Below are positions 14,301-60,676 of a stretch of DNA of 64,000 nucleotides, in pieces. The stretch spans positions 17,147,495-17,211,494 of the forward strand of contig CM073328.1 of the NCBI GenBank assembly GCA_037043015.1. Direction: 5' to 3'. The position numbers were made by a program, and so were the translations under genes. This stretch comes from Bryum argenteum. Its lineage: Eukaryota > Streptophyta > Bryopsida > Bryales > Bryaceae. The notes beneath the pieces are model-generated. The model was not told the origin of the DNA. It saw nothing but the letters and a program-made list of their open reading frames with translations, and did no database searches. The number at the start of each line of letters is the position of its first letter. Position 1 is the first letter of the stretch.

Positions 14301-17300
14301 TCATGAAATTGAAAGCCTTTGGGTATTGGTAGTTGCTTCATCACTTATTTCCTGTGGACCTTCTTGCTTGGACAGTGTTACTAGCCCTAATTTCTTACGA
14401 ATGCCTTCAAAAGCCACTCTGCCCAGAGACTTTGTAAAGATGTCTGCAATCTGATTGCTTGAAGGTACAAACTTTAGTGCTATTTCTCCTGTGAGTACCT
14501 TCTCCCTCACAAAATGGTATCAAACATCTACGTGCTTGGTCCTGCTGTGGTAGATATGATTATAGGCTAGGTTCAAACTGCCTTGATTGTCACCATGCAA
14601 GATCGTGGGAGTTGACAAATCCTGCATCTTGAGTTCCCCCAAGAGGGGCCTCAACCAGATCGCCTCTTTAGTTCCGTTGGTAAGAGCCATATATTCTGCC
14701 TCAGTCGAAGACACTGCCACAGTTTGTTGTTTCTTGCAATTCCAGGTCACAGGAGTTTCTCCAAGAAAGAAGATGAATCCTGTTGTGGATCTGCGGTCGT
14801 ACGAGTCGTCTGCTCAATTTGAGTCTGTGAATCCACAAATGGTGAGTTTTCTCCCTTGCTGGTAAAACAAAGCAGAATCCATAATGCCTTTGAGATACCG
14901 AAAGATGTGTTTCATGGCCTGCAGGTGCGAATCTTGTCGATGACTCATGAATCGGCTCACGAGGCTCACTGCATGGGAGAGGTCCGGACGCGTGTGCGTC
15001 AAGAAGATATGTTTTCCCACCATCATGTGATAGGTGGTGGGATCAGTACTTGGAGCGGACATATCATGTATGAGTTTGAGCTTCTCTGCTAGGAGAGTGT
15101 GTATAGGGCGGCAGTCCGCTATTCCAAAGTCTGTGAGCATTTCCCTCACGTATTGCCGCTGCGTGATTAGAATCCCCAAAGTACTAAATATAAATTCCAA
15201 TGCCAATTAATAAGTTAGCAGTCCCAGGTCGCTCATGTCAAATTGAGTTTGGATATTAGCTCGAATACTAGCAATGTGTAAGTCGTGACTGCCTGTAACG
15301 TACACATCGTCGACATATAGTAGTAGAATGGTGAGCTTGCCTTCATCTTCAAAGTAATAGAGGTTAGGATTTGCACCAGATTTGGTGAGATGTTGACTGA
15401 TAAGGTAGGAGTCAATACTTGAGTACCAGGCTCTCGGTGCTTGTTTCAGGCCATACAAGGCCTTCTTCAATCGACAGGCTTGGCTAGGATCAGAGCGGGG
15501 AAATCCTGGTGGCGGCTTCACATACAGTTCTTTTGTGATCAAGCCATTTAAGAATGTTGTTTTAACATCTAAGTGATAGATTTTCGAAGAGTGATGACCG
15601 GCGAGGGCGACAATGCTGCACAAGGTGTTCCATTTTACCACGGGGGCAAACGTTTCGGTATAGTCTATCCCTGCTTGTTGTTGAAACCCTTTTGCTACTA
15701 GTCTAGCCTTTACCTTTGCCGGAGTGCCATCTGCATTTGTTTTAACCTTGCAAATCCACTTGATTGAGATCGCTTTGCGCCCTGGAGGTAAGGAGACAAT
15801 GTCCCAGGTGTCATTTCGGGATATTGAATCAAGTTCGCTATGCATGGCCGCCTAGCTTCCAGCCCGGGTGTTGGAGGGCTGCTTAAACGTCGACAGGCAG
15901 AGCGACACATGAGTGTTGGTTAACTACATGAAGATGATAATTTGATAAGAGGGCTGGTGCTTTGCAAGTTCTGTTGCTGCGGTGAAGGTTCGAAGGCTCA
16001 GATACTACTTCAGGAGTTTGTCTTTGATGAGTATGAGTCGGGAACTGTGCTAGATAAGATAGGTCTGAGCTGATGGGTAAGTGAACAGAGAAGTCTGAGA
16101 TAGGAGTGGAAGTTCGACCGAGTGAACTAGTGTGAGACTCTTGTTGGATAGGAAAGGGGTGGTGTAGGGACTCTGACAAACTAGAGTAATCAGGGAGAGA
16201 GTCTGAATTAGGGTCAAAAGTGGGTGACTGATGAGGTAAGATTTTTCGGACCTGTGCACTAATAGGGGAGCTTGGTGACTGAGGAGAAAAAGGGGGTGGA
16301 GGCTCTGCGTTAACCGGTCAATGAGTCGTGGGAGGCGGTTGGGATATGACTGTTTCGAACGGTGAGGGCTGATTCAATGGATCAGAGGGAAGTACAAGTG
16401 GTCTAAGTATGACTTCAGGTAGTATATCGGTGGCCCAAGTCAAGTACCGCTCTGCTGGTTCGGTATTGGAGACCTCGGTGGTGGAAGTCAAACCGCAGGG
16501 AAAGCATGTTTCGTCAAAGTCCACGTCTTTTGATATTAAGATCTTCCTGGTGGAACGATGGTAATTCCTATAGCCTCGAGAGTCGGCATCATAACCTAGG
16601 AACACACACTCTTTTGACCGATGAGCTCATTTGTTGCGGTTGGGAGTGTTGTCCAGTACAAAGGACTTGCATCCAAAGGTTTTCATATGAACAATAGAGG
16701 GTATAGTACCTGTGAATCAAGTGAATGGAGTATCACCATTGTTAGCTCTTGTTGAGATCCTGTTGGTGAGGTAGTTTGCAGTTGACAATGCTTCTCTCCA
16801 TAGGAAGGCCGGAGTTTGACTGTCAAATGCCATACACCTTGCATTTTCAAGTAGAGTGCGATTTTTCCTCTCAGCTACTCCATTTTGGTGGGGTGTGTAG
16901 CTTTGGGTGTATTGGCGCACTATTCCAGTGTTGTTGAACCAATCTTGGAATTCCTTGGAAAGGTATTCTCCTCCTCTATCTGAGCGAATCGCTTTAAGTT
17001 TGAATTCACTCTGAAGTTCAACCATGGCTTTGAATTGTTTGAATCTCAGTAGTGTCTCATCTTTGTACTTCAGGAAATACAGCTAGGTGAACCTGCTGTA
17101 ATAATCTGTGATCGTCATCATGTACTAGGAGCCAGAGATGGAAGCAATTGACATTGGGCCACAAAGGTCGGAATGTACCAGTTCAAGAGGTTGCCGTGTT
17201 CTGGTCCTGTCTGCCAAAGTATAAGGTCGAATATGCTGAGGAGCACCATTGTTAACTCCATTTGAAAGTTGCTGCTTACGCTGGATGAGTCGGTGTCGAT

Positions 17301-18650
17301 GCTGCTTTCCAAGGCGGCAACTGTTGCACAAGTCCAGTGGGCTCCTGATTTGCGGCACTCCTGTAACTTTAGCCTGAAGCGCTATGAATTTGATTGCCTG
17401 ATGATTGACGTGGCCTAATCGCTTATGCCACAAAGTGGCTTCGTATTGTTTTGTGGCAGAAGTGACAATGTTGATGATCTCGTCTGGAGGACGAAATTTA
17501 TATCTAGAGGCCGTTTCTTTGATCTTGCTTGCCTGAGGCCAGAACTTTGCAGGAATCGGGAAAAGGAAATTTCGAAGAATCCATACAGTTCTCAGTCAAA
17601 CAAGACTTTGAGATCTTGTTTATCATCAGTGATTGCTCCGACCAAGATCATGTTTTTGGTTACTCTAGGTACGTACAGAACTTCAGTTAATTTTATTGCT
17701 CCTAGGGTGGTGGGAAGATTCATCGATCCTTGTCCGGCTACATCCAGTTTTTCTCCTCCAGCGGTGCTGACTTTGGAGTGATTCCCTCGTTTGAGATCTG
17801 AAAGGAGATTCTTTTGTCCAGTAACATGTTTAGAAGCTCTACTGTCTAGATACCAATCTTCTTCTTTGCTATGAACTAAGTTGACTTCAGTGAGATTCAC
17901 GGTAAGGAATGAATCAGCTACTACATCTGGAAAGCTATCATAGGAGTCGAGGTCGTCATCCTTGAAGTTGTCAATCAAGTTGACAGTTGACTGATCGGCG
18001 CGACTCAATCTTCATTTCTTCACCTCCGTAGCTAATTCGGGGCAATCACGCAACCAGTGCCCTTTCTGTCCGCACTAGTGACACGTGGTGGTTGACTTGT
18101 TAGCTTTCTGCCGCCCATCGTCCCCTCCAGAGGCTGATCGCCGATTCGTTGGGTTCCGGACAACGTTCTTAGTAAGCAGTGCTTCTGTATCCGTGCGTCT
18201 CGATGATCTCTGACTTCGCCGAAGTTCGTTCTGCAGCAAAGTTGCAGTAAGTGTTGCGGGAGTTGGGAGTTTCTCCATGTACATGATCGTGTTAACCAAA
18301 ACTTTGAGAGAGTCAGGCAGTGCCATTAAGATGTGCTCGACAAGTTCATCGTCTGGAATGGTTTCGCCAACTGCTGCAAACTCGTTTACCAGCTCGGTAA
18401 CTTGTTGAAGAAAGCTAGACATGGTAGAGCTTTTGTTCATCTTGAGGGTCACCAATTGTTTGGGCAACATGAGTTTTCTGGAGTTAGTGGAATTTGCAAA
18501 CAGATCCCTCAACGTCTTCTAGCAAACATCTGGTTCGGAGATATTGGCGATGTAAGGTATCATGCTATCCTTGACAGACAACGCTATCAAAGTGAGTGCT
18601 TTCTTCTCCGCTAACTCTAACGCTGCTTTGTCAACAGGATCAGTGGGTGC
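14301..18650 (-). pseudogene. Copia 1 gag-pol region, fossil
   Basis: Read on the minus strand: gag of the UBN2 type (about 18.1-18.6 kb), a CCHC knuckle with CGQKGHWLRDC (about 18.0 kb), protease with WYLDSRASKHVTG (about 17.85 kb), the pre-integrase segment WHKRLGHVNHQAI with CNSCRLGKQH (17.3-17.4 kb), integrase core with RSDRGGEY and PHQNGVAERKNR (16.8-17.0 kb), reverse transcriptase with WICKVKTNADG and LLYVDDVYVTGS (15.2-15.8 kb) and RNase H with AVSSTEAEYMAL (about 14.7 kb). The order integrase before reverse transcriptase identifies Ty1/copia. It is interrupted several times and is not a functional polyprotein. Confidence 0.92.
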
Positions 18651-43592: not shown

Positions 43593-44130
43593 TGTCCATC
43601 ACACACCAACCCACATGTGGACAAGAACCACCCTGAGGGAGGAAAGCACTTGGCATTTGTGTAAGAGGCAAGTTATTAATGAGCTCCACTTCGGTGGTGG
43701 GATGCTCGGTTTAATTTGGGCATGTAGAGTTCGATTTTAGGAAGGCGCTCGGAAATAGGTTGATCAACCGTAGCGTTGACAGCAGCGGCAAAGTTCGTGT
43801 GCAGTGCGTGATTGATGCGGCCTTGCGTTCATGACCATCTTGACCTAATTATTGGAATATATCTCATGGGTGAACTAAATATGAAATGTGTTTATAAAAA
43901 TATTAATGGATTGACTTCAATAATAATATTTGCTAGTACAAAATATATGATTTGATGTTTTATGATTCCAATTATAAAAAGTGGTGTGGAATATTTGGTC
44001 AAATTCATAGTTGCAACATGCTTATTAAAACTTAGAACTGTGCTTTGAAACCGGTTTTCAATAACATTGATTCTACAATAGGAGTATCACCAATTAATTT
44101 TGATGTTACAATCAATTTTTTTATTAACTT
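43593..44130. other. Intergenic DNA upstream of the gypsy element
   Basis: Nothing recognised. TGATGTTA at 44,100-44,107 happens to match the start of the 3' LTR, but the following bases do not continue the match. Confidence 0.4.
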
Positions 44131-44154
44131 AGAAGCATCCTAGCTCGTAGAAGT

Positions 44155-44252
44155 TCTAGAAGCATCCTAGCTCGTAGAAGTTCTAGAAGCATCCTAGCTC
44201 GTAGAAGTTCTAGAAGCTTCTTGGGTTCTAGAAGCTTCTTGGGTTCTAGAAG
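44155..44252 (+). promoter_or_regulatory. Heat-shock-element motifs in 5' LTR
   Basis: TTCTAGAAG occurs at each repeat junction, and TTCTAGAAGCTTC (TTCnnGAAnnTTC) occurs twice just upstream of the TATA box. Alternating nGAAn/nTTCn units are the binding sites of heat-shock factors. The 3' LTR has a longer array. Confidence 0.65.
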
Positions 44253-44295
44253 TATATATAGGAGTCGAGGCTGAAGAGTTCTTCAGTCTCGACAA
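44253..44295 (+). promoter_or_regulatory. TATA box and predicted transcript start
   Basis: TATATATA at 44,253-44,260. A start about 32 nt downstream would be at 44,285, where the sequence is AGTCTCGACAA. The region 44,264-44,293 can also fold into a near-perfect stem (GTCGAGGCTGAAGA with TCTTCAGTCTCGAC). Confidence 0.65.
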
Positions 44296-44421
44296 CGCAT
44301 CTCTTGGAGCTCTAGCTCACCTCTCTTGGTGTTATTCGTGTACTCTTCTTGTTAATCCAAGCTCTTGTCAGTTTTCGTTAGTTTCCAGATATTCTTGTCA
44401 TCTGTTTCCGTGTCCCTGACA

Positions 44422-44437
44422 GTTTGTCGAGACTACC
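44422..44437 (+). other. Self-priming-type primer-binding site
   Basis: Two bases after the 5' LTR, TTGTCGAGACT (44,424-44,434) is the exact reverse complement of AGTCTCGACAA at the predicted RNA 5' end (44,285-44,295). Tf1/sushi elements prime reverse transcription from their own 5' end by an 11-nt match of this sort. No tRNA-type site lies at this position. Confidence 0.75.
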
Positions 44438-44610
44438 TTTTCACAGATATCAGAGCTAGTCCCTTCTTGTTGGAGAGAGTGGATTACCCCTCTTCTTGGA
44501 GTCTTGAGGCGTTTTAGAGGTTGCGGAGTACCCTCCTTTAAACCAATATTGTTCTCTTGTCAAATTTTTTCTTTTCATTCGTAGATTTGGTCAAAGATCA
44601 AGACGTCAAT

Positions 44611-46317
44611 ATGGCTGAAAATTTGGAATCCAAATTGGACGCCATCATGAATGCTCTTGCTACGTTAACACAGAGACAAGCGGAGATAGAAGGAGCCATG
44701 GCAAGACTTCACAGTGATGGAGCATCCGGGATAACATCATCCAGGATTCACCAGTCTCAAGCTACTACACCGGAGGAGGCGACTAAACCTTTAGTTCAAC
44801 AAAACCCAATGATTCAACAACGGAAGGAGCCTAGAGTTAATCTTCCTGACAAGTTCGACGGAACGCGTTCCAAGTTTCGAGGTTTTGTCAACCAAATCAG
44901 GTTGATAACGATTTCTGAAACTGAACGATATCCGACGGAGGAGGCGCGTGTTGGACTTGTTGGAACTCTGTTTACAGGACAAGCTGTGTCGTGGTTTGCC
45001 CCATTGTTCGAGAAATGATCGCCAATTCTGAGCAACTTTGAGACGTTCTTGGAAGCATTTGCAGAAGCATTTGGCGAACATGACAAGGTTCGATGGGCTA
45101 CAACAAAGATCCGATCACTCTGACAAGGGACGCGCTCTCGCATCGATCTCACGATCGGTTTCGGACAAATCAAGCTAGTGACATCAATCAAAGAAGAAGC
45201 ATTGGTGAGTCGGTTTTATTGGGGTTTGAGGATGATGTGAAGGACCTACTTTTATCCCTCCCCCGATCCGCAAACGCTCAACGAAGCCATTAGCCAAGTC
45301 AAAAGTCGACAACCGTTTATTCCAAATATCGTCAGACAAGAAATACCAAAAATACCAAACGAATCGCTACACCACGAGTATGTTGGCAAACAATTTGAGT
45401 TCTCATTCGGAGGCAGAAGCCAAGCAGATCAACGCGGTGCGTGTCAGACCTCTTACTCCAGAAGAAAAGAAACGGCGTATGGAAGAAGGACTCTGTTTGT
45501 ACTGCGGAGAAGAAGGCCACAAGGTTGGAAATTGCTCCAAGAAGCAGAACCGGAGCATTGTTAAGACTAGGAGTGCGGTGATCCCGGAAAACGACGATGC
45601 CCAGCCACAGTAGAAACCGTGCGGCTGGACGATTCAATGCCGCGACAACAATCAGGTTCCTCTTTCTCTGCCCAACCTGCCCATTGTTTTACAATTCCCT
45701 TGTCTCTTGGTCCTCAAAAACACAAAACTTTAGCGCTATTAGATTCGGGAGCATCTACTTGTTTTTTAGATGAAGAATTTGCTAACCGTCACAGGATTCG
45801 TCTAGTACAGAAATCCAAGCCTGTTCATGTAGAGGTGATAGATGGACGACCTTTATTGTCTGGCAGTGTCACCCATGAATCAGTACCTATAGAGGTGGCG
45901 TTTAAGGACCATAGTAATTACGTTGTTTTTAATGTCATTAGAACCCCGTCAAACCCTGTCATCCTAGGTCTCTCCTGGTTAGAACAACATAACCCTACCA
46001 TAGATTGGAAGTTGCGGAAAATGAATTTTTCCAAAGAACATTCTAAGAGCCAACCTAGTAGACATCCCAAGATAGGGAAACCATTGTTTATTGGAGCAAG
46101 GGCGTTCGTACGATCATCCAAAGAAAGAGCACCCTTCGTCATCTATGCAGCTCCAACTAGCACGGAGAAGAGTTCGACGGCAAGCATACCAGAACAATAC
46201 AAGGATTTTGAGGACATGTTTCAGAAGAAGAACGCGGACATGCTACCGGAGCATCGACCATACGACTGTGCCATAGACCTGCTAGAAGGAGCACAACCGC
46301 CTTTTGGCCCAATCTAA
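44611..46317 (+). pseudogene. Gypsy gag and protease region, fossil
   Basis: Begins MAENLESKLDAIMNAL with a heptad-like N-terminus, then the capsid-like segment VNLPDKFDGTRSKFRGFVNQ, a single CCHC knuckle CLYCGEEGHKVGNC (about 45,498-45,540) and a retropepsin segment with LALLDSGASTCFLD (about 45,730-45,770). Gag packages the RNA; protease cuts the polyprotein. About three breaks in this part. Confidence 0.88.
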
Positions 46318-46419
46318 TATCTCTCTCAAACGGAGTTAACGGAGCTGCGAAAATATATTGACGAAAATCTAGCGAAGAACTTCATTCGTCATTCAAAGTC
46401 GCCAGCTGGGGCACCGATC

Positions 46420-49092
46420 TTGTTCGTAAAGAAGAAGGATGGCTCCTTGCGAATGTGCGTGGACTATCGAGGCCTCAACAAGGTAACTAAGAAAAATCGT
46501 TACCCGTTACCCTTGATCTCTAGTCTCTTGGAGCAGCTCGGGCGTGCAAAGATCTTTACAAAAATTGATCTGAGGGGAGCTTACAACCTCGTACGGATCA
46601 AGGAAGGAGATGAGTGGAAGACAGCGTTCCGCACAAGATATGGCCATTTTGAATATAATGTCATGCCTTTTGGCCTTACCAATGCTCCGGCTGTTTTCCA
46701 ACACATGATGAATAACATCTTTCGGGAGTACCTTGACGACTTTGTTGTCATATATCTGGATGACATCCTGATATTTTCCAAAAACGAAGAGGAGCACGAG
46801 AAGCACGTTCGTTTAGTCCTCGAGAAACTACGAGAACGAGGACTCTACGCCAAGATGGAAAAGTGCCTATTCCACCAAACCGAGATAGAGTTTCTAGGGT
46901 TCATTGCGACTACAGATGGCTTGAAGATGGACCCCAAGAAGGTGGAAGCAATTGTATCCTGGGAGGTTCCGAAGACGGTTAGAGACGTACAATGTTTTCT
47001 TGGATTTGCTAACTTCTATCGGATCTTCATCAAGAATTATTCTCGGGTCGCTGCTCCACTCACCCGATTGACGTGTAAGGACAAGCTAGAATGGGGACCT
47101 CAAGCCGAACGAGCATTTCAAGATCTCAAGACGGCGTTTACTACGGCTTCAGTCCTGCTACACCCTGACTTTGCAAAGGCCTTCTATTTGGAGACCGATG
47201 CTTCTGATTTTGCTTTTGGAGCCGTACTTTCACAGATGGGCGCAGACGGGAGGCTTCATCCAGTTGCGTTTTATTCTCGGAAGTTCTCTGCTGCGGAAAT
47301 TAACTACGAAATCCACGATAAGGAACCCCTTGCCATAGTAGATTCCTTTCAAGAGTGGAGACACTTTCTCGAAGGCGCTGCGCATCCGGTGACCGTATAC
47401 ACGGATCACAAGAATTTGGAGTACTTCATGTCGGCTCGAATCCTGAATCGACGTCAAGCTCGGTGGAATATGTCGTTGTCGCGATTTAATTTTGTTATCA
47501 CCTATCGGCCTGGGAAGCAGCAAGGACTATCGGATGCATTATCGAGGAGATCGTATCTCACGCCTAAGACTGGGGAAGAAGCATTTGATCAACAATGCAC
47601 CACATTGTTGAAACCGGAACATTTTAGAATTTGCGTTGCTGTCGTGCCAATTGATGCGGACTTCCTCGACCAGGTACGCACTGTAACAACCAAAGATTCT
47701 GTAGCTCTTGAGATCAAGAAGCGTGCCGATAATGACAAGTTCAAGGTGGAGGGAGATCTTTTGTATTTTGAAGAGCGACTATATATTCCAAAGGGACCAA
47801 CACGACTTCGAGTTCTCCAATCTCGCCACGACTTTCCAGCAGCAGGACATTTTGGATACAACAAGACATTGGAGCTTATTTCGCGAGATTTTTGGTGGCC
47901 TCAAATGTGGAAGGATGTGAAGGAGTTTGTCCTCTCTTGTGATATTTGTTCAAGGTCAAAGAACCCTCGGCATCGCCCCTATGGACTTCTGCAGCCATTG
48001 TCTATTCCGCATCGACCATGGTCTTCAGTTTCCATGGACTTCATTACGGACCTGCCGCCTTCAAACTCGTTCGACAGCATCTTTGTTGTGGTGGATCGGC
48101 TTACAAAGATGGCGCATTTTATTCCTTGCAAGAAGACATCGTCAGGCGAGGACACAGCAAGACTCTTTCTTGATAATGTATATCGTTATCATGGCTTGCC
48201 AGATGACATCGTGTCAGATCGAGGAACTCAGTTCGTCTCCAAATTTTGGAAATCTCTTTTCGAGATTTTGAAAGTGGATATCAAACTTTCTTCAGCCTTT
48301 CACCCTCAAACTGACGGTCAGACGGAACAGGTAAATCAAGTCTTGGAGCAGTATCTACGCTGCACCATCAACTACCAGCAAGACGATTGGACCGAATATC
48401 TACCGTTTGCCGAGTTTGCCTACAACAACACCCTTCATGCGTCGTCTCAACAAACACCGTTTTTTGCCAATTATGGATACTATCCGAAACTTGATTTGTT
48501 AAATCCAGTGGCCAATAACAACCCGGCAGCAGAAGGCTTTGTGAGACAGCTATCGGAGCTTCAAGCTACGTTGCGACTTCAATTACAAACTGCCCAAGAC
48601 TCTTACAAGGCGTCCGCAGATAAATTTCGGAATAAGGCACCCACTTTCAAGATTGGAGATAAGGTATGGCTGCTTCGACGAAACATCAAAACCAAGCGGC
48701 CATGTGACAAGTTGGACTATCGAAGATTGGGGCCGTTTGTCATCGAGAAGCAAATCAATCCAGTGGCGTACCGGCTAGAGCTACCAGCTGCTATGAAGGT
48801 ACATCCAGTCTTCCGCGTGTCCTTGTTGGAACCTTATCGAGAGTCTATTTTTCCTGGAAGAATGCAAAGTCCGCCACCTAGTGTCGAAATCGAGAACCAT
48901 GAGGAATACGAGGTAGATAAGATACTAGATTTACGGCGAAGATGGGGAAAATTAGAATACCTCGTGCATTGGAGCGGCTACGATATTAATGAACGAACAT
49001 GGGAGGATGCCGAAAATCTCGCAAACGCGCCAGAGAAGGTACAGGAGTTTCATCAACGATATCCTCGTAAACCCAAGCCGGTTCGGCGATAG
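46420..49092 (+). CDS. Gypsy pol: RT, RNase H, integrase, chromodomain (890-codon open frame)
   Basis: Open frame with, in order: reverse transcriptase (residues about 1-190, active site YLDD at 112-115, FGLTNAPAVFQ at 84-94), RNase H (about 240-370, TDASDFAFG near 259), zinc-binding integrase N-domain (about 465-520, H..H..C..C in HDFPAAGHFGYNKT.. CDICSRSK), integrase core (about 535-700, SDRGTQF near 600, HPQTDGQTEQ), a GPY/F-like segment and a chromodomain (about 826-880, EYEVDKILDLR.. YLVHWSGY.. TWEDAENL). Integrase after RT marks Ty3/gypsy; the chromodomain marks chromoviruses, where it guides insertion to particular chromatin. It probably belongs to one polyprotein with the upstream region. 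Confidence 0.95.
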   Translation: MFVKKKDGSLRMCVDYRGLNKVTKKNRYPLPLISSLLEQLGRAKIFTKIDLRGAYNLVRIKEGDEWKTAFRTRYGHFEYNVMPFGLTNAPAVFQHMMNNIFREYLDDFVVIYLDDILIFSKNEEEHEKHVRLVLEKLRERGLYAKMEKCLFHQTEIEFLGFIATTDGLKMDPKKVEAIVSWEVPKTVRDVQCFLGFANFYRIFIKNYSRVAAPLTRLTCKDKLEWGPQAERAFQDLKTAFTTASVLLHPDFAKAFYLETDASDFAFGAVLSQMGADGRLHPVAFYSRKFSAAEINYEIHDKEPLAIVDSFQEWRHFLEGAAHPVTVYTDHKNLEYFMSARILNRRQARWNMSLSRFNFVITYRPGKQQGLSDALSRRSYLTPKTGEEAFDQQCTTLLKPEHFRICVAVVPIDADFLDQVRTVTTKDSVALEIKKRADNDKFKVEGDLLYFEERLYIPKGPTRLRVLQSRHDFPAAGHFGYNKTLELISRDFWWPQMWKDVKEFVLSCDICSRSKNPRHRPYGLLQPLSIPHRPWSSVSMDFITDLPPSNSFDSIFVVVDRLTKMAHFIPCKKTSSGEDTARLFLDNVYRYHGLPDDIVSDRGTQFVSKFWKSLFEILKVDIKLSSAFHPQTDGQTEQVNQVLEQYLRCTINYQQDDWTEYLPFAEFAYNNTLHASSQQTPFFANYGYYPKLDLLNPVANNNPAAEGFVRQLSELQATLRLQLQTAQDSYKASADKFRNKAPTFKIGDKVWLLRRNIKTKRPCDKLDYRRLGPFVIEKQINPVAYRLELPAAMKVHPVFRVSLLEPYRESIFPGRMQSPPPSVEIENHEEYEVDKILDLRRRWGKLEYLVHWSGYDINERTWEDAENLANAPEKVQEFHQRYPRKPKPVRR

Positions 49093-49224
49093 CTTCTTTC
49101 TGACGCTTACCCACTCAGGAACATAAAAGGGAGGGAGTGCACCACAAAAATTCATAGTTGATGTAGTTATTTTGTCTAAGATTGAGTAGAAATTTTCTAG
49201 TAGCCATAGTTTAGTCTTCTGATA

Positions 49225-49577
49225 TGGATAATCAAGAGATAGAAAGTATACCAGTTATGTCATCTCAACCAGCAAACTCACGAAGACGACCTCGAGATGA
49301 AAAACCGCCTGCACCACGACAACGACGAAGGATACCAAGCAACTGATCGCTGGTGATTGTATTCGAAATGGAGCCTGCGTTCAATGGTGTGCCAGAAGGC
49401 GTGTTTGCAGGACAATTTCACAATGAAGACACGGAGGTTCATGCTTGGTCGGAAGTGGAAGGCGTGGGCCACTACCGTTGGCTTCAAGGACCAATGAACT
49501 ACTTACCTCGTGAACAACAATTGGAGTTCATTGCAGACGTGATGCGGCAGATCTTCATTTTTCTGCGTTGGTATTAA
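49225..49577 (+). other. Two small frames after the gypsy pol
   Basis: Between pol and the polypurine tract are a 40-codon arginine/proline-rich frame (49,225-49,347, begins MDNQEIESIP) and a 74-codon frame (49,353-49,577, begins MIVFEMEPAF). Neither resembles envelope or other known extra retroelement proteins. Coding status unknown. Confidence 0.35.
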
Positions 49578-49612: not shown

Positions 49613-49624
49613 TAAAGGAGGGGG
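49613..49624 (+). other. Gypsy polypurine tract
   Basis: AAAGGAGGGGG lies directly before the 3' LTR start TGATGTTAGGG. Confidence 0.85.
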
Positions 49625-50060
49625 TGATGTTAGGGACATAGGCTCTGGAACCTTCTTGAAGGAAGTCTCTAGAAGTATCTTGAACCTTCTAGAAAGAAAG
49701 TCTCTAGAACCTTCTAGAAGGAAGTCTTTAGAACCTTCTAGAAGCTAGTCTCTGGAACCTTCTAGAAGCTAGTCTCTGGAACCTTCTAGAAGCATCCTAG
49801 CTGGTAGAAGTTCTAGAAGCATCCTAGCTCGTAGAAGTTCTAGAAGCATCCTAGCTGGTAGAAGTTCTAGAAGCTTCTTGGGTTCTAGAAGTATATATAG
49901 GAGTCGAGGCTGAAGAGTTCTTCAGTCTCGACAACGCATCTCTTGGAGCTCTAGCTCACCTCTCTTGGTGTTATTCGTGTACTCTTCTTGTTAATCCAAG
50001 CTCTTGTCAGTTTTCGTTAGTTTCCAGATATTCTTGTCATCTGTTTCCGTGTCCCTGACA
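49625..50060 (+). repeat. Gypsy 3' LTR
   Basis: 436 bp, TGATGTTAGGG..CCCTGACA. U3 starts with about five degenerate 24-bp units (ctctggaaccttctagaagc + tagt), then the 27-bp and 18-bp units also seen in the 5' LTR, then TATATATA (49,892-49,899). Confidence 0.92.
49645..49891 (+). promoter_or_regulatory. Dense heat-shock-element array in gypsy U3
   Basis: At least six stretches fit the full consensus nGAAnnTTCnnGAAn (for example GAACCTTCTAGAAG), and one fits nTTCnnGAAnnTTCn next to the TATA box. The motif is built into the tandem units, so the array grows with them. Binding by heat-shock factors is inferred from the motif. Confidence 0.7.
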
Positions 50061-51739: not shown

Positions 51740-53532
51740 GCAATACAGTCCTGCGCTTGGGTTTTGTCTGCTCTCGTTTAGGCGCTCCTCCCGCTCAGTA
51801 TCGTATCGTTTCTGCTTGCAGCTGAAGTTTTTGAAATGTCTGTACAGACATTCGCTTCTCAGCAAATCGCCTTGCTCCGTTGCTGGAAATTGCTGAAAAC
51901 GAGATAGCCCGCGTGTCGTCACTCTGTCCGATTTATCGTCGGCCGAGTTTCATTTCCCCGCTGATTATTGCAATGGTTACGCGCAAGGCCACGGGAAGTG
52001 TCACCACACTTTCATTGAATAGGCCACGTTGCAGCGATCGAGCACGGACGGAGTTAACGATAACCAAGTGCATTATTCCAGGTATTTGGTTAGGGTTTGC
52101 TACGCGAGAGGGCAAGAGCCGGATAGGATTTCGTGCACAGTAGAGAAATGCTCGGAAATTCCGAGGCTGGTGAGGTTAACTCTCTCGCAAGTTCCTTGGT
52201 AGTTCCTATGGCCATGGCCGGAATTTCGTGTTCGGCCATGTCCACAACCGTTCTTCCAAGCAACAGTGAGTGAGTCTGGCTTGGCTATGGCCGGACCATT
52301 GGCATTTCGTGTTCGGCCATGTCCATGAGAGATTCATCAATTAACAGAGAAACAATCTGGCGGTGTCAGTACACGAAAGTAGGAGGCTTGGTATTCGGAA
52401 AGGAATCGTATCCGGTCGACTGTTATGAATGCAATGGCTGATAGTTAGGTAGTCTCTCTGTTTCGGCCATATCCATAACAGATCTTCCAAGCAACAGCGA
52501 GTGAGTCTGGCTTGGCTATGGCCGGACCATTGGCATTTCGTGTTCGGCCATGTCCATGACAAATCCATCAATTAACAGGGAAACAATCTGGCGGTGTCAA
52601 TACTCAAAACTAGGAGGCTTGGTATTCGGAAAGGGATCGTATCCAGTCGACTGCATTGAATGCAACGGCTGATAGTTAGGTAATCTTTCTGTTTGGGGAA
52701 TGCCAACAACGACAGACGGACTGACAACAGGCCTTAGTTCTTCTCAATAGAGAAGTTTATTCATTGGTAAATAATGTGCACACAACATGATGATCAATCT
52801 GATCACATGGCTGTTTGCTTCTTCACAACAATCGGTCTTTGAATTAGACCTTCACTACCGTAGCCTACTAGCAGCTTCGTTCATAAATAATTAGAAAAAC
52901 AGAAGTCGAATTTTTTTGGAAATTACATTTGCAGGCTGCCGAAACAAAGAGATATTACAATATAAGAATTTCGAAATATTCAAAATAAAGGAGAAGCCAC
53001 CCGTCTTTAAATGAAAGAGCAGCCACCAGTCTTTAATGCATACTGTACAAAGCGCCCATGAAAAATGAATAGGATTCTGGATGAAAATTGAACTTATGAA
53101 TATTTATTTTCCAAAAAAACCGATTTAAAAAAAATTCATTTTGGAGGTGTCGAACATCATTTTTTCAAAATAATTAAATATTCGATGGAGCATGGTCGAA
53201 GCTGCTAGAAGGCTACGGTAGTCTAATTCACCATCCCGGTGCCATGCTTGGCACACAGAGATTGTACTATGCATTTTTTTTCTTTTTGATAACTAATGAA
53301 AGCAGGGAGTAGAGATGACTCCCTAAATTTGTGTCAGTGCCTTCAATTTCTGCACTGTCCATTGCACGATGCTTGAAAGAAGTGCTCGGGGTGGCATGTC
53401 CGACATCGCCCTCCGCAGCGATGGACATGGACCCCAAATCTGGTTGAATTCTGCTCCCAGGTGCATGTGGCTTCATCCAGATGTGTGCGAATCACGCCCG
53501 ACAATGAATGAGCCTGTGTCCGCATCGATGTC
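51740..53532 (+). repeat. Gene-like island 3, left half
   Basis: 52,180-52,270 matches island 2 at 32,840-32,945. A telobox 'ggttagggtttgc' lies at 52,088-52,100. Its last bases 'gcatcgatgtctct' correspond to 'gcatcgacgtccatttctc' at 33,656-33,674 in island 2; copia 2 then begins, and the match resumes at 61,668. No recognised protein. 52,700-53,250 has no clear content. Confidence 0.55.
52228..52690. repeat. Tandem duplication, period 231 bp
   Basis: Two copies of a unit with 'ttcttccaagcaacagYgag', 'ggctatggccggaccattgg', 'gtgttcggccatgtccatga', 'aaacaatctggcggtgtca' and 'gtcgactg.attgaatgcaa'. Similarity is high, so the duplication is fairly recent. Confidence 0.85.
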
Positions 53533-54055: not shown

Positions 54056-57000
54056 TCACCTCTCCATCCTCCAACTTCTCTCGAATGAAATGGTGTTGCA
54101 CATCAATGCGCTTCGCGAGAGTCGTGCTTGGATCCTTTGCAAGAAAGCAATACACCCTTGGTTGTCACACATGATGCCCGTGGCTCCTCTCGCACAAAAC
54201 CCAACATCCTCCAATAGTTGCCGCAGCCACAATGCCTCCTTTAAGAATGGCTCGCCGCCATGTATTCCGCTTTCGTAGTAGACACCGCTATTGTGGGTTG
54301 CCTCTTGCAATTCCACGAGATTGCGCCATCTCCTACAAAGAACACATACCCTGTCGTGGATCGGCGCTCATTCACATCACCCACCCAATCCGCATCACAA
54401 TATCCCTTCAACTCAAGGTCTTTACCTCAAAGGCACAACAGAATCAATGGTGCCTTTCAAGTACCTCAAGATGCGTTTTACCGCCATCCAATGTTGAGGA
54501 CCAGCCTTTGCCATGAATTGGCTCACCATGCTCACCGGGAATGCAAGGTCACCCTTGCGCCACCATTGCATACATCAACGACCCCACCGCCGCTTTCTAT
54601 GGAATGGCCTTCATCTCTTCTTCAACCTCCTTGAACTCCTCATCCGAAAGCTTCAACAATGACCCTTCACATCAAGAGGGGGTGCCAATGGGCTTGCATT
54701 CCTCCATGTTGAACCGCTGAAAGACCTCCTCGATGTACTTGCCTTGGCTCATGGTGATGGTGCGTGCGCTGCGATTGCGCTCAAATGCAACACCAAGGCA
54801 AAACTCCAAAGGCCCAAGATCACTCATCTCAAACTCCTTCTCAAGCTTGGCCTTCAACCACTGCAACACCGCATCATCACTAGCCAAGATAATCAAATCA
54901 TCAACATAGATGATCACAATCAACAAGAACTCCTTAGTTTGCTTTACATACAAGGAGTGATCCGCATGGCTTCTAGAAAAGCCTTCTTTCGTGAAGAACA
55001 AGTCAATCCTTTGGTACCACGCCATTGGAGATTGCTTGAGCCCGTACAACGACTTCTTGAGCCTACAAACAAGGTGTTGGGTGCCCTCCTCCACAAAGCC
55101 AAGGGGCTGGTCCATGTAGATGTCCTCCTCCAACTCACCATTCAAGAACGCCGTCTTGACATCCATTTGGTGAATCTCCAAGTCCATGGCTGCCCCAATC
55201 GCCAACATGCATCGTATGGTGGTAAACTTGGCCACGGGTGCAAAGGTCTCATGGAAATCCACACCCTCCACTTGGAGAAGCCCTTGCCACCAAGCGTGCC
55301 TTATAACGCAAAGACGTTGCCTTGTGCATCCCTCTTGGTCCTAAACACCCACTTACAACCAACACTTTTGCGCCCTTTGGCAATGGGGCCAACTCCCATG
55401 CGCCATTGGCCATTAGAGATCCATACTCCTCTTGCATGGCCAACTCCCACTTGCTTGCATCCACACTTTGCAAAGCATCACCCAAAGTTAAAGGATCATC
55501 AAAACAAGCCACATTTGCACGTTCTACCTCACTAGGTGGTGGGAGAATGTGGTTCATCCACCAATCGCCAAGCGGCCGCCTCTCCCCTTGCGGGGTACCT
55601 TGAACCTTGTGTTTCGCGCCCTCTCCAATCTCCTCATCTTGTGGTTGCCTCTCCTCCACAACCTCCTCCTCTTGTTTGTCTTGTTGCTCTTCTTCAACTT
55701 CTCGAGCAAGCGGCGCTGAAATTGAGGTGCATCCACTACAATCACCGTGAAGTGGCTCCAAACTCCCACTTGGATGCATCTCCACATTTGCATCCGCACA
55801 AGTAGCGTCCTCCGCAAACACCACATCACGACACTTTAGGATCTTCTTAGTCTCCAAACACATCAACCTATATGCCTTGGTGCCTTTACAATAACCAAGG
55901 AACAAACACCTTGTGCCCTTTGCATCAAGTTTAGTCCTCTTCTCATCCGGCACCTTTGCATAAGCAATACAACCAAATACACGCATGTGTGCGATCAAAG
56001 GCCTCCTACCACTCCATGCCTCTTGGGTGTCTTTACCAACAATCGCACTAGTTGGGCACCTATTTCGTGTGTACACCGTCAGTAACCACCGCTTCCGCCA
56101 AAGGTTCTTGTTGAGGTTTTGGTGGTGTAGCATGCTCCTTGCCATCTCCACAATTGTGCGGTTTGCACGCTCCGCCACTCCATTTTGTTGTGGTGTGTAG
56201 GGTGTTGATAGTTGCCTATCAATGCCATGTCTTGGAAGAAAGCGCTCAACGCCTTGAAGTGAACTCCTCCATTGTCCGATCGAAACGCCTTGATCTTGTG
56301 CTCCGATTGCTTCTCCACAAGCGCCTTGAACTCCACAAACTTGGCAAATACCTCTCCCTTGGACTTCAACACATACACCCACACCTTCGGAAGGTCATCT
56401 ATGAAAGTCACAAAATACAAGAAACACCCATGGAAATGGTCTTGAATGGACCACACACGTCCGAATGAATCAACTCCAATGGCTTGCTTGCACGCCGACC
56501 TCCCTCACTTGGAAATGGAGTCCTTGAAAGCTTGCCTTCAATGCAACCTCACAAACCGAATTTGATGCACCATCCTTGATTTGCATGCCATTCACCATGC
56601 TTTGAAGAGCCTTGACACTCTTGACATTCAAATGCCCAAGGCGTCTATGCCATAGCTCCAAAGGCGATTGTGGCATTGGCCGCCATTTGCCATTTCATGC
56701 ATGGAGAAGGGTATTTCATACAAACTCCCTACTCTAGGCAATCTAGCAATCACCTTCCTATTGGCTGCCCTCACAAGGCATGCATCATCATCAAATTCTA
56801 CCTTTAAACCATTCAAAGCAAGCTTTACAACCGAAATCAAGTTCCTCTTGAACTTGGGGATATGGAGCACCTCCTTCATGTGGATCTTATGCTTCACTCC
56901 CATCACCATCGCCTCCTCAACAATTGTACCAACACCAACCGCATGCACAATGCTATCATCTCCCAAGTGCACATTGCGTGGTGGTGAAATTACCTCATAC

Positions 57001-57411
57001 GTTTGGAACGCTGCCCTATGCGGCGTCATGTGTTTGGTGGCTCCCGAATCCATGACCCACGTGGCCATGGTGTTGTCATCTCCATCGTTGATTGCCATAG
57101 CATGCTCCTCCTCTTTCTCCACCTTGCTTGCAACAAAGGCGCTTAGAAACGCATAGTCCTCTCCATTGTCTTTGTTGCTTGCTAGGTTTGCACTCTCCTT
57201 CTCCTTCTTCTTGTTTAAGAAGCAATGCATTGCAATGTGGCCCGGTTTGCCACAATTGAAGCACGTCCTTGGCCCATTTTGCATCCTCCCTTTGTTTTGG
57301 GCCGCCACCAACGCTGCCTCACCACTTTGAGCACCCTTCTCCTTCCTCTTGGACACTTCATGCATCAACCTTGACACCACAAACTCCATCTTAAGGTCAG
57401 CAATGTTCAAG
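54056..57411 (-). pseudogene. Copia 2 pol and 3' gag region, fossil
   Basis: Minus-strand landmarks: gag knuckle CFNCGKPGHIAMHC (about 57.23 kb), protease WVMDSGATKHMTP (about 57.04 kb), pre-integrase LWHRRLGHLNVKSV (about 56.65 kb), integrase with FRSDNGGVHF and TPQQNGVAERANR (56.1-56.3 kb), reverse transcriptase with VKTAFLNGELEEDIYM and IIYVDDLIILAS (54.7-55.3 kb), RNase H remnant (54.06-54.32 kb). Related to the common plant TNT1-like copia type. Broken. Confidence 0.92.
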
Positions 57412-57416
57412 GTCTC

Positions 57417-58709
57417 TGTGAGCCAAAAAACCACTTTGGGGTGGCAATTGGTCACAAGGATCAAGATCACAAGAGAAATGAAGAAGGGAAGAAGGGAAAC
57501 AAGGAGAGGATGAAGAACAAGGGAAAGAACAAGAAGAAACCACCGGCCGGATGCATTTTTAAGTACCCTTCAGATTCTAGGCCGCCATTTCTCCATCCTA
57601 GCTCGGAATTGGGCGTGCATTAGCTTTTTAGAAAGCCAACTTAATTGTGCATCTACCCTGAAAATCTCAAAAGCATAGGACAAAAAACCTAGGACTGATT
57701 GCCATTTGACTGGGCCTTGTTTTTATACCATCCGGCCGAGAACACCTTCAACACTACTGACTTTGGGAGGTGATTTCTCCCTCCCTACAGATCGGAATTG
57801 GACGAGCCATATACCAAAAGAAAGCTACTGAGGAGATCTACCAGCATCCTAAATCTCAATCGATTTGGACTAAAACCGAGGGACTGATGGCTATTTGATC
57901 GAGAGGCACTTCCAAGGAGATGAGCAAATGACAACAATCTACAAGGAAGAGCAAAAACAAGGAAAGAGGGGAGCAAGAAGAGAGAGAAGGAGGCCCATGG
58001 CCTTCCTTCTCTTCACTAACTAAGCATTAGAAGAGGGAGAGGAGAACACCAACATGAATCAATGAACAAGAGGGAATGGATTGATTTATTGATTATAGCT
58101 TGAAAACAAGCTCTTAAGTACAAATGGAGGAGCCGCCAAAGAGGCGGCTCACCCTAACCCTAAGGCCCTAATCTAAGGCCTCCATGGATGAATGACGCTC
58201 CATCCTCCATGGCGCTCCATCCTCCATGGCCCTCCACCTTGAAGAACCCCTACAAACGAATGTAACTCACAATTGCCACCACAAAGTCAATTGGACAAGA
58301 CCAAAACAATCAAGTCTCAAACACAAAATATGAACACCCGAGGTTAATTGTGCAAGGCCAATGGTAAAACATCTAACTCTTAATCAAGCAACTAACCCTA
58401 TTTCTAATTAAGGATCCACTAGGGATTCATTCCTCCTCTAGTCCTTCCCCATCAAACTATGGATCCACTAGGGGGATTCATTCCTCCTCTAGCCCTTCCA
58501 CACTAAATCTAATCTAAGGCTTAAATAAATGCCAAACATCCTATCCAAGGCCTTACAACAACCATCCTCAAACATGCATATTGTATTCAAAACTTAATTA
58601 TCTTAATTTCACCAATCTACTTCAAAATGACATTTGCTAATTAACAATTCATTTATAAAAGTAACAAATAAACAATAACATCAAAAGAGAGCAATAACAT
58701 GCTCTCACA
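57417..58709 (-). repeat. Left LTR of the nested element
   Basis: Near-identical to the right LTR; differences are a few one- or two-base changes, mostly in homopolymers. Within the LTR an older internal duplication of about 190 bp is visible (57,600-57,710 against 57,785-57,905: 'tcggaattggRcg', 'agaaagc', 'aRgactgatKgc.atttgactg'). Confidence 0.93.
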
Positions 58710-58857
58710 GGTGGCGGCCATCTGGGACGACTCGAAGAGGAGAAGAACCCAAAACTATGCTCAATGGGCAACACGGTCATATGATAATTGCCTTCCAAGC
58801 AATGGACCTACAAGGCTAACAAGCCTACAAAGAAAGCTCCCGGCAAACGCACCAATT
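58710..58857 (-). other. 148-bp internal domain of the nested element
   Basis: Too short to code. One edge carries the PBS-like sequence described for the element; the other edge (GGTGGCGGCCATCTGGGACG, plus strand) is not an obvious polypurine tract in either orientation. Confidence 0.75.
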
Positions 58858-60149
58858 TGTGAGCCAAAAAACCACTTTGGGGTGGCAATTGGTCACAAGG
58901 ATCAAGATCACAAGAGAAATGAAGAAGGGAAGAAGGGAAACAAGGAGAGGATGAAGAACAAGGGAAAGAACAAGAAGAAACCACCGGCCGGATGCATTTT
59001 TAAGTACCCTTCAGATTCTAGGCCGCCATTTCTCCATCCTAGCTCGGAATTGGGCGTGCATTAGCTTTTTAGAAAGCCAACTTAATTGTGCATCTACCCT
59101 GAAAATCTCAAAAGCATAGGACAAAAAAACCTAGGACTGATTGCCATTTGACTGGGCCTTGTTTTTATACCATCCGGCCGAGAACACCTTCAACACTACT
59201 GACTTTGGGAGGTGATTTCTCCCTCCCTACAGATCGGAATTGGACGAGCCATATACCAAAAGAAAGCTACTGAGGAGATCTACCAGCATCCTAAATCTCA
59301 ATCGATTTGGACTAAAACCGAGGGACTGATGGCTATTTGACTGAGAGGCACTTCCAAGGAGATGAGCAAATGACAACAATCTACAAGGAAGAGCAAAAAC
59401 AAGGAAAGAGGGGAGCAAGAAGAGAGAGAAGGAGGCCCATGGCCTTCCTTCTCTTCACTAACTAAGCATTAGAAGAGGAGAGGAGAACACCAACATGAAT
59501 CAATGAACAAGAGGGAATGGATTGATTTATTGATTATAGCTTGAAAACAAGCTCTTAAGATAAATGGAGGAGCCGCCAAAGAGGCGGCTCACCCTAACCC
59601 TAAGGCCCTAATCTAAGGCCTCCATGGATGAATGACGCTCCATCCTCCATGGCGCTCCATCCTCCATGGCCCTCCACCTTGAAGAACCCCTACAAACGAA
59701 TGTAACTCACAATTGCCACCACAAAGTCAATTGGACAAGACCAAAACAATCAAGTCTCAAACACAAATATGAACACCCGAGGTTAATTGTGCAAGGCCAA
59801 TGGTAAAACATCTAACTCTTAATCAAGAACTAACCCTATTTCTAATTAAGGATCCACTAGGGGGATTCATTCCTCCTCTAGTCCTTCCCCATCAAACTAT
59901 GGATCCACTAGGGGGATTCATTCCTCCTCTAGCCCTTCCACACTAAATCTAATCTAAGGCTTAAATAAATGCCAAACATCCTATCCAAGGCCTTACAACA
60001 ACCATCCTCAAACATGCATATTGTATTCAAAACTTAATTATCTTAATTTCACCAATCTACTTCAAAATGACATTTGCTAATTAACAATTCATTTATAAAA
60101 GTAACAAATAAACAATAACATCAAAAGAGAGCAATAACATGCTCTCACA
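58858..60149 (-). repeat. Right LTR of the nested element
   Basis: Near-identical partner of 57,417-58,709. A lysine-rich open frame (about 58,882-59,064 and its twin at 57,441-57,623) is present in both LTRs but has no family resemblance and is not taken as a gene. Confidence 0.93.
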
Positions 60150-60154
60150 GTCTC

Positions 60155-60676
60155 TAAAGTGGTAATCAAATGCTCAAACGAAGATGGCAAGCTATCAAGC
60201 AGCGTCATCACTATATCGTCCTCCCTCATGGGCACTTCCAAGCAAGCGAGCTGATCGGCGAGTGCCTTGATGTTGTTGATGTGCTCCAAAAGATCAGCGC
60301 CTTCCTCCATCTTGATTATGAAGAACTTGCGCCTCAAGAAGAGGATGTTGGCCAAACTTCTTGTCTCATGAATGTTGCAAAGCACCCTCCATGCTTCCGC
60401 TGGTCCTTTGCAACTCTTGATGTGAGCAAGTTGGGCATCCACCAAATTGAGCCCAATCATGGACATGGCCTTCCTCACCCTCCTTTGATAGTCCTTCTTG
60501 TCCTTGTCACTTGCATCAGATGGTGGAGCCTCCTCCGTGCCTTCAATAATCTCCCACAAGTCCATGGAAGAGAGGGTCAAGTTCATCTTGAACTTCCACA
60601 AGTTGAAGTTGGTGCCATTGAACTTCTCAAGTACCCTAACACTCTCACCCTCCAAAGTGGCCATAGCCAAGCACAC
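60155..60676 (-). pseudogene. Copia 2 gag N-terminal part
   Basis: Minus-strand frame starting near 60,676 with MATLEGESVRVLEKFNGTNF and WKFKMNLTLSSMDLWEII, then UBN2-type segments ETRSLANILFLRRKFF and HINNIKALADQLA. This is the gag N-terminus of TNT1-like copia elements. It is separated from the rest of gag by the nested element. Confidence 0.9.

Follow-up and report, generated by a model that had tools for sequence, protein, structure and literature searches.

Probable self-priming of reverse transcription by a moss Ty3/gypsy chromovirus, and a predicted hairpin at its U3/R junction

The 64,000-nt stretch of Bryum argenteum DNA analysed here (the window; contig CM073328.1) carries on its forward strand a Ty3/gypsy element whose pol frame of 924 codons (46318-49089) encodes reverse transcriptase (RT), RNase H, integrase and SH3 domains and, after the integrase, a chromodomain (48907-49059; PF00385, residues 864-914), all by Pfam and in one frame; the SH3 domain is Tf2-1-like. 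A stop codon divides this frame from an aspartic protease frame (45571-46314; PF13975, PF08284, PF13650), which is preceded by a gag-like region (44542-45561) that is spread over several frames with stops and matches DUF4939 only weakly, below cut-off. The 3' LTR (49628-50060, 433 bp, TGTTAGGGACA...TGTCCCTGACA) is complete and lies directly behind the polypurine tract AAAGGAGGGGGTGA (49614-49627); the same tract precedes the 3' LTR in sister copies. Part of U3 is missing from the start of the 5' LTR: its homology with the 3' LTR begins at about 44130, so that the first coordinate of the interval 44130-44421 is approximate. Between 44225 and 44421 the two LTRs are identical at 197 of 197 nt. 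The window copy is young by its LTRs and recently inserted, but it is now defective. Short tandem repeats of 24-27-bp units occur in U3 (44130-44252 and 49644-49892), and their number varies between the two LTRs of the window and among copies. At 49215-49574, downstream of pol and ahead of the polypurine tract, two short frames (43 and 76 codons) have no Pfam match. Elsewhere in the window, frames that resemble Ty1/copia pol and gag (judged by eye) lie on the minus strand at 14814-18512 and 54672-60676, and a 231-bp unit occurs twice in tandem, 91% alike, at 52231-52692.

The last base of the 5' LTR, which terminates in CTGACA, is 44421. Two nucleotides (GT, 44422-44423) separate it from the putative primer-binding site (PBS), TTGTCGAGACT (44424-44434), which is an exact reverse complement, over 11 nt, of AGTCTCGACAA at 44285-44295; the original prediction had placed the two partners at these coordinates, and they hold. 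The TATA box TATATATA (44253-44260) begins 32 nt upstream of the first base of the match, a distance that is about constant across LTR subfamilies, and the 11-mer is accordingly positioned where a TATA-driven transcript should start, as had been proposed; position 44285 is taken below as the predicted RNA 5' end and R nt 1. The surrounding TCAGTC fits the named initiator motif TCAKTY (PMC3601003). Comparison of the LTR (44130-44421) with the 24 nt downstream of it gives no inverted match longer than these 11 nt, and there are no 12-mer matches. Within the window the exact R 11-mer is found at 44285, at 44424 (on the minus strand) and at 49924, the copy of R in the 3' LTR; with up to one mismatch there are 4 matches, compared with 0.86 expected.

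A host tRNA, whole or cut, might nevertheless be the primer, the R/PBS match then being incidental or structural. Some plant elements do have half-tRNA or partial tRNA sites, according to Neumann 2019 (PMC6317226). The 5' LTR of the moss element is not followed by the TGG that would receive a tRNA end. A tRNA match from 44422 onward that would be better than the match to R was sought among 36 host tRNA genes (32 of them distinct, out of 64 matches listed), and the longest exact match is 7 nt, against an average of 6.6 nt for shuffled PBSs. The genes for seven kinds of tRNA (Met, Trp, Ser, Val, Pro, Cys and Glu) lie outside the set of 36, and this leaves the tRNA explanation some room. A search for a tRNA-Met-like PBS in six related elements (L071-L076) did not find one. 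An incidental match also gives no reason for R and PBS to change jointly from family to family, as they do in families II to IV described below. We regard priming by a tRNA as improbable.

The original prediction also expected the pairing to recur in other genomic copies. The genome (258.8 Mb in 25 contigs) was searched and 40 of 419 candidates were scored; among 26 sister copies fetched (family I), 25 have the exact pairing and one (L016) has a single mismatch. (These counts omit L001, which is the window itself, L003_3, which duplicates L013, and L017, whose match ends before the end of the PBS.) A further full-length match outside the 26, at C1:10215466, has one mismatch in R. In an alignment of 27 rows, 1 of 594 cells has changed at the 22 paired positions, compared with 124 of 5072 at the other 188; the P of 2e-5 for this difference is optimistic because the rows are related. 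Considered separately, R is equalled in constancy by 8.5% of 11-nt windows and the PBS by 16%. At least 10 copies, the window copy included, were seen to have both LTRs among the 40 of 419 candidates scored. Perfect 5-bp target-site duplications flank all 8 sister copies that were checked (one other was not among the 8, and the window copy, its 5' LTR being truncated, has no duplication to check), and these duplications fix the LTR ends and therefore the +2 position of the PBS.

Genome-wide, the exact pair at a spacing of 110-140 nt occurs at 77 places and a reversed-pattern control at none; when the spacing is fixed at 128 and up to 3 mismatches are tolerated, the count is 59 (control again 0), and at 44 of these places the pair is exact. 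Twenty copies fetched from the 77 places fall into LTR subfamilies A (that of the window), B and C, and the 11 copies of subfamily C share 71-78% identity with the window across 269-285 aligned nt. Since these 20 copies were found by the pair pattern, their pairing is not an independent count. R nt 1 is a G rather than an A in three copies (C4:2827953, C4:11178162 and C7:6899402); facing a T of the PBS, it would form a terminal G-U pair in the duplex.

Close kinship among sister copies makes shared sequence weak evidence when taken alone, and this is the opening for a different account, in which the R/PBS complementarity arose as a chance match and was inherited by descent. The chance of an 11-nt match at one fixed pair of positions is 4^-11, or about 2.4e-7, and other families of the same genome have matching pairs of their own. 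With a Tremellales pol protein (P0113) as query, 53 matches were found in the genome; 12 further elements were hand-picked from these, mostly for open frames, and their upstream DNA was compared. The LTR/PBS junction could be located in 6 of the 12, and all 6 have R/PBS complementarity; nothing follows from the other six (L072 with L084, L077, L078, L079, L081 and L082), whose junctions were not located. One of the located junctions (L076) belongs to a further subfamily of family I, with a match of 12 nt. Family II (L074, L075 and L080) has ACTCTCTTCAA as its R sequence and a match of 11-13 nt that follows CA+GT, with TATA at -32. Family III (L073) has ATCTGGTATT, a 10-nt match, TATA at -32 and the target-site duplication ATACC. 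In family IV (L071), a 9-nt match, ACGCAACCT, starts two nucleotides after the LTR, with TAAATA about 28 nt upstream. (The LTR ends of L073, L080 and L071 were set by comparison of both LTRs.) The pairing is thus shorter than 11 nt in families III and IV. A filtered scan for such pairs passed 8, of which 5 are at located junctions, while a block-shuffled control gave 0.6 per full set. Scans that used the TATA filter and seeds of 10 and 9 nt did not pick up the family IV match, which appeared once the LTR of that family had been defined; its R/PBS evidence is for this reason the weakest of the four.

Unrelated R sequences with matching PBSs in three families imply that primer and site have been replaced together. 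Chance with descent does not anticipate a different matching pair in each of families II, III and IV, nor the excess of passing pairs over the control, and we consider it very improbable indeed. Several families with joint replacement of primer and site offer a clean natural test of self-priming in land plants. The geometry (TATA at -32, PBS at LTR end +2), a PBS without TGG, retention in sister copies and co-replacement of R and PBS elsewhere in the genome together support the central proposal of the original prediction: it is highly probable, judging from these sequence comparisons, that the window element primes its own reverse transcription from the first 11 nt of its RNA.

The sequence of events would be as follows. 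Transcription would start at 44285, as the TATA distance suggests, and the first 11 nt of the RNA would pair, by virtue of their complementarity, with the PBS 2 nt past the 5' LTR. The element's RNase H would then cut after nt 11, as in Tf1, and the 11-nt fragment released in this way would serve as primer for minus-strand DNA, so that minus-strand strong-stop cDNA would carry AGUCUCGACAA attached to it. The PBS of the new copy would be a copy of the parent's R nt 1-11. R and PBS should therefore stay matched in sister copies and change jointly across families; that the two have been replaced together would be explained, on what is known of the cycle, by the copying of each new PBS from the primer. 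Self-priming raises the question of how an RNA that carries its primer at each end can draw on the 5' copy while sparing the 3' one. Within the 3' LTR these R nucleotides can pair with an arm in U3, and such pairing may shield the second primer copy from use and from cutting.

The structure in question is a palindrome at 44264-44293 (a 13-bp stem and a 4-nt loop) in which an arm in U3 pairs with a 3' arm whose last nine nucleotides are R nt 1-9; its copy in the 3' LTR is at 49903-49932. The 3' LTR stretch 49898-49942 folds with -22.7 kcal/mol (z -5.3), and none of 200 shuffles is as stable. Other 40-nt windows as stable were not encountered in the window's 3' LTR (0/313), in one subfamily B copy (0/267) or in one subfamily C copy (0/252). 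In subfamilies B and D one A-U pair of the stem has become G-C, through changes in both arms, and the loop is GCAA. Across 16 distinct rows 91.8% of cells pair, and 28-46% do so when the arms are slid; three rows with 1-nt indels (L018, L050 and L061) were left out of the covariation count. Shuffles reach the covariation score in 12 of 500 cases, the share paired in 64 of 500 and the count of doubly changed pairs in 176 of 500. The covariation support from family I is thus modest, in part because subfamily C rows were found by the exact R 11-mer, which fixes one side of the stem. Families II and III, with unrelated arms, also fold across U3/R, with 0 to 1% of full shuffles as stable, and as a prediction from sequence this is better evidence for the hairpin than the covariation within family I. 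In family IV the hairpin does not reach significance, 35.8% of full shuffles being as stable. Other LTR windows as stable number 0 of 165 in family III, 64 of 502 in family II and 6 of 190 in family IV. Overall, the hairpin is clear in three of the four families.

The RNA would begin at R1, and the hairpin could therefore form only at its 3' end. At the RNA 5' end, without the U3 arm, R nt 1-11 would be free for the PBS; at the 3' end, R nt 1-9 would be locked, which would keep the second copy from the PBS and from cutting and protect the acceptor for strand transfer. In family I the hairpin is predicted to be the more stable of the two pairings (-22.7 kcal/mol, against -16.2 for the R:PBS duplex), and in family II slightly the less stable (-13.5 against -14.6). 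The hairpin might thus lock the 3' copy of the primer, a role that we infer from its position; the lock is the least certain step of the scheme. If it does operate, it bears on how the 3' copy is spared.

The palindrome sits between the TATA box and the start site, and it may alternatively be a promoter element at the DNA level, a protein-bound dyad for example, with no connection to priming. The modest covariation of family I, in which one pair has changed on both sides, fits such an element, as does the absence of a significant hairpin in family IV; arms that match perfectly at 14 of 14 positions, wobble included, occur at 15 places in the window as a whole. Against such an element, one G-U pair is kept in 14 of the 16 distinct rows, subfamilies B and D have the GCAA loop, and one shared protein site would not predict arm sequences that differ among families I, II and III. 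The promoter explanation comes, in our estimate, just short of an even chance.

In the leader as a whole (44285-44460), the minimum-energy fold includes the 11-bp R:PBS helix, and the leader is no more stable than its shuffles (z -0.5; 54 of 200 shuffles reach its stability). In subfamilies A and B, R/U5 could form a second duplex with the stretch that follows the PBS, one that 10-17% of shuffles reach; in the subfamily C rows 0-78% of shuffles are as stable, in a comparison confined to one side of the PBS. In the Tf1 'pretzel', neighbours of the PBS form further duplexes with the LTR (PMC10085805). The post-PBS duplex was considered as proof of a similar structure and set aside, since it fails to reach significance in most of the rows tested.

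The host is a moss, and hence a plant, as the original prediction had conditionally assumed; a piece of plastid ycf1 is also closest to mosses among named proteins. This piece is on contig C14, taken as the host's plastid, which has ndh-like frames too and is AT-rich over the 10 kb analysed (L031, G+C 0.232). Four proteins without names match the ycf1 piece at 96-97% identity; the nearest named ones are those of Bartramia (78%), Plagiomnium (77%) and Cratoneuron (76%), and liverworts and ferns score far lower. The prediction of a Tf1/sushi-like lineage in plants stands in so far as it accords with a group I chromodomain and with two fungal neighbours in the RT tree; it is not new, such a lineage being already in print. 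Three cage positions of the chromodomain are aromatic, as in group I: Y, W and Y align with the cage positions of CBX5 and CDYL. In the RT tree, families I and II form one clade (11 rows, support 100/100) within a weakly supported part (83/82) that also holds chytrid and Tremellales proteins. Families III and IV are in a separate clade of 11 rows (L094-L096 and L100-L107), all from this genome, with support of 100/99. The tree has 40 rows (23 of 120 listed proteins, 16 loci and the window) without reference elements of the named clades, it came with a long-branch warning, and its sampling is biased because hits to the window supplied the database rows. The placement being weak, the name of the clade rests on features; by these, the element fits the Tcn1 clade of mosses and club-mosses, Tf1/sushi-type chromoviruses. 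Two scans of viral contigs for relatives outside this genome, one using the pol protein as query and the other an 11-row alignment, did not confirm any. A combined reading, in which the U3/R hairpin is a lock, primer and PBS change together and self-priming extends to the second moss chromovirus clade (families III and IV), is put forward tentatively, as a possibility with the odds against it.

A group I chromodomain has been reported for Tcn1-like elements of mosses and Selaginella (PMC3350952), and the clade itself has been described (Novikova 2010, PMC2864245). Most of its moss and club-moss members lack tRNA PBSs and are predicted to self-prime (Neumann 2019, PMC6317226). A self-priming moss lineage, having been predicted there, is therefore not new. 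The window element shares with the Tcn1 clade its moss host, its group I chromodomain, a PBS that is not of the tRNA type and predicted self-priming; it differs from Selaginella SM-Tcn1, in which no PBS was found (PMC2864245), in having an explicit R/PBS pair, and it has a U3/R hairpin, of which the parts of PMC6317226 and PMC2864245 available to us make no mention. A limited and mostly open-access literature search likewise turned up no report of a U3/R hairpin. It is the hairpin that is the less expected part and the one worth following.

Comparison with better-known systems brings out the same features. In Tf1 the initial 11 nt of the RNA anneal to the PBS and are cleaved off between nt 11 and 12 (PMC7175516). 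Complementarity of RNA nt 1-11 to an LTR-adjacent PBS is common to the moss element and to Tf1, Tf2, Tj1 and Tosmo of fission yeasts, and so is a chromodomain integrase (PMC7175516, PMC4600332, PMC10085805). In Tf1, however, priming has been demonstrated by experiment, whereas here it is predicted from the DNA, and the 'pretzel' duplexes of Tf1 are not clearly supported in the moss element. The TAR lineage of plant elements (Houba, Osr-1; PMC6317226) is likewise predicted to self-prime, but it belongs to the Ty1/copia superfamily, lacks a chromodomain and is not the lineage of the moss element. In the fungal GalEa Copia elements, a hairpin (the Conserved Hairpin Site; PMC5445492) is similarly tied to an unusual start of reverse transcription; that hairpin lies downstream of the 5' LTR, and the LTR contains no complement of it, in contrast with the moss hairpin, which spans U3/R and contains the primer.

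Some family I units have a different arrangement. At C7:15759895-15767471 (L003, L004, L005, L012 and L013) they form a tandem array with a period of about 2 kb, each unit consisting of an LTR and the internal part as far as the equivalent of window position 45665, pol being absent from the compared stretches. Plants are known to have LTR elements in tandem (PMC11899658).
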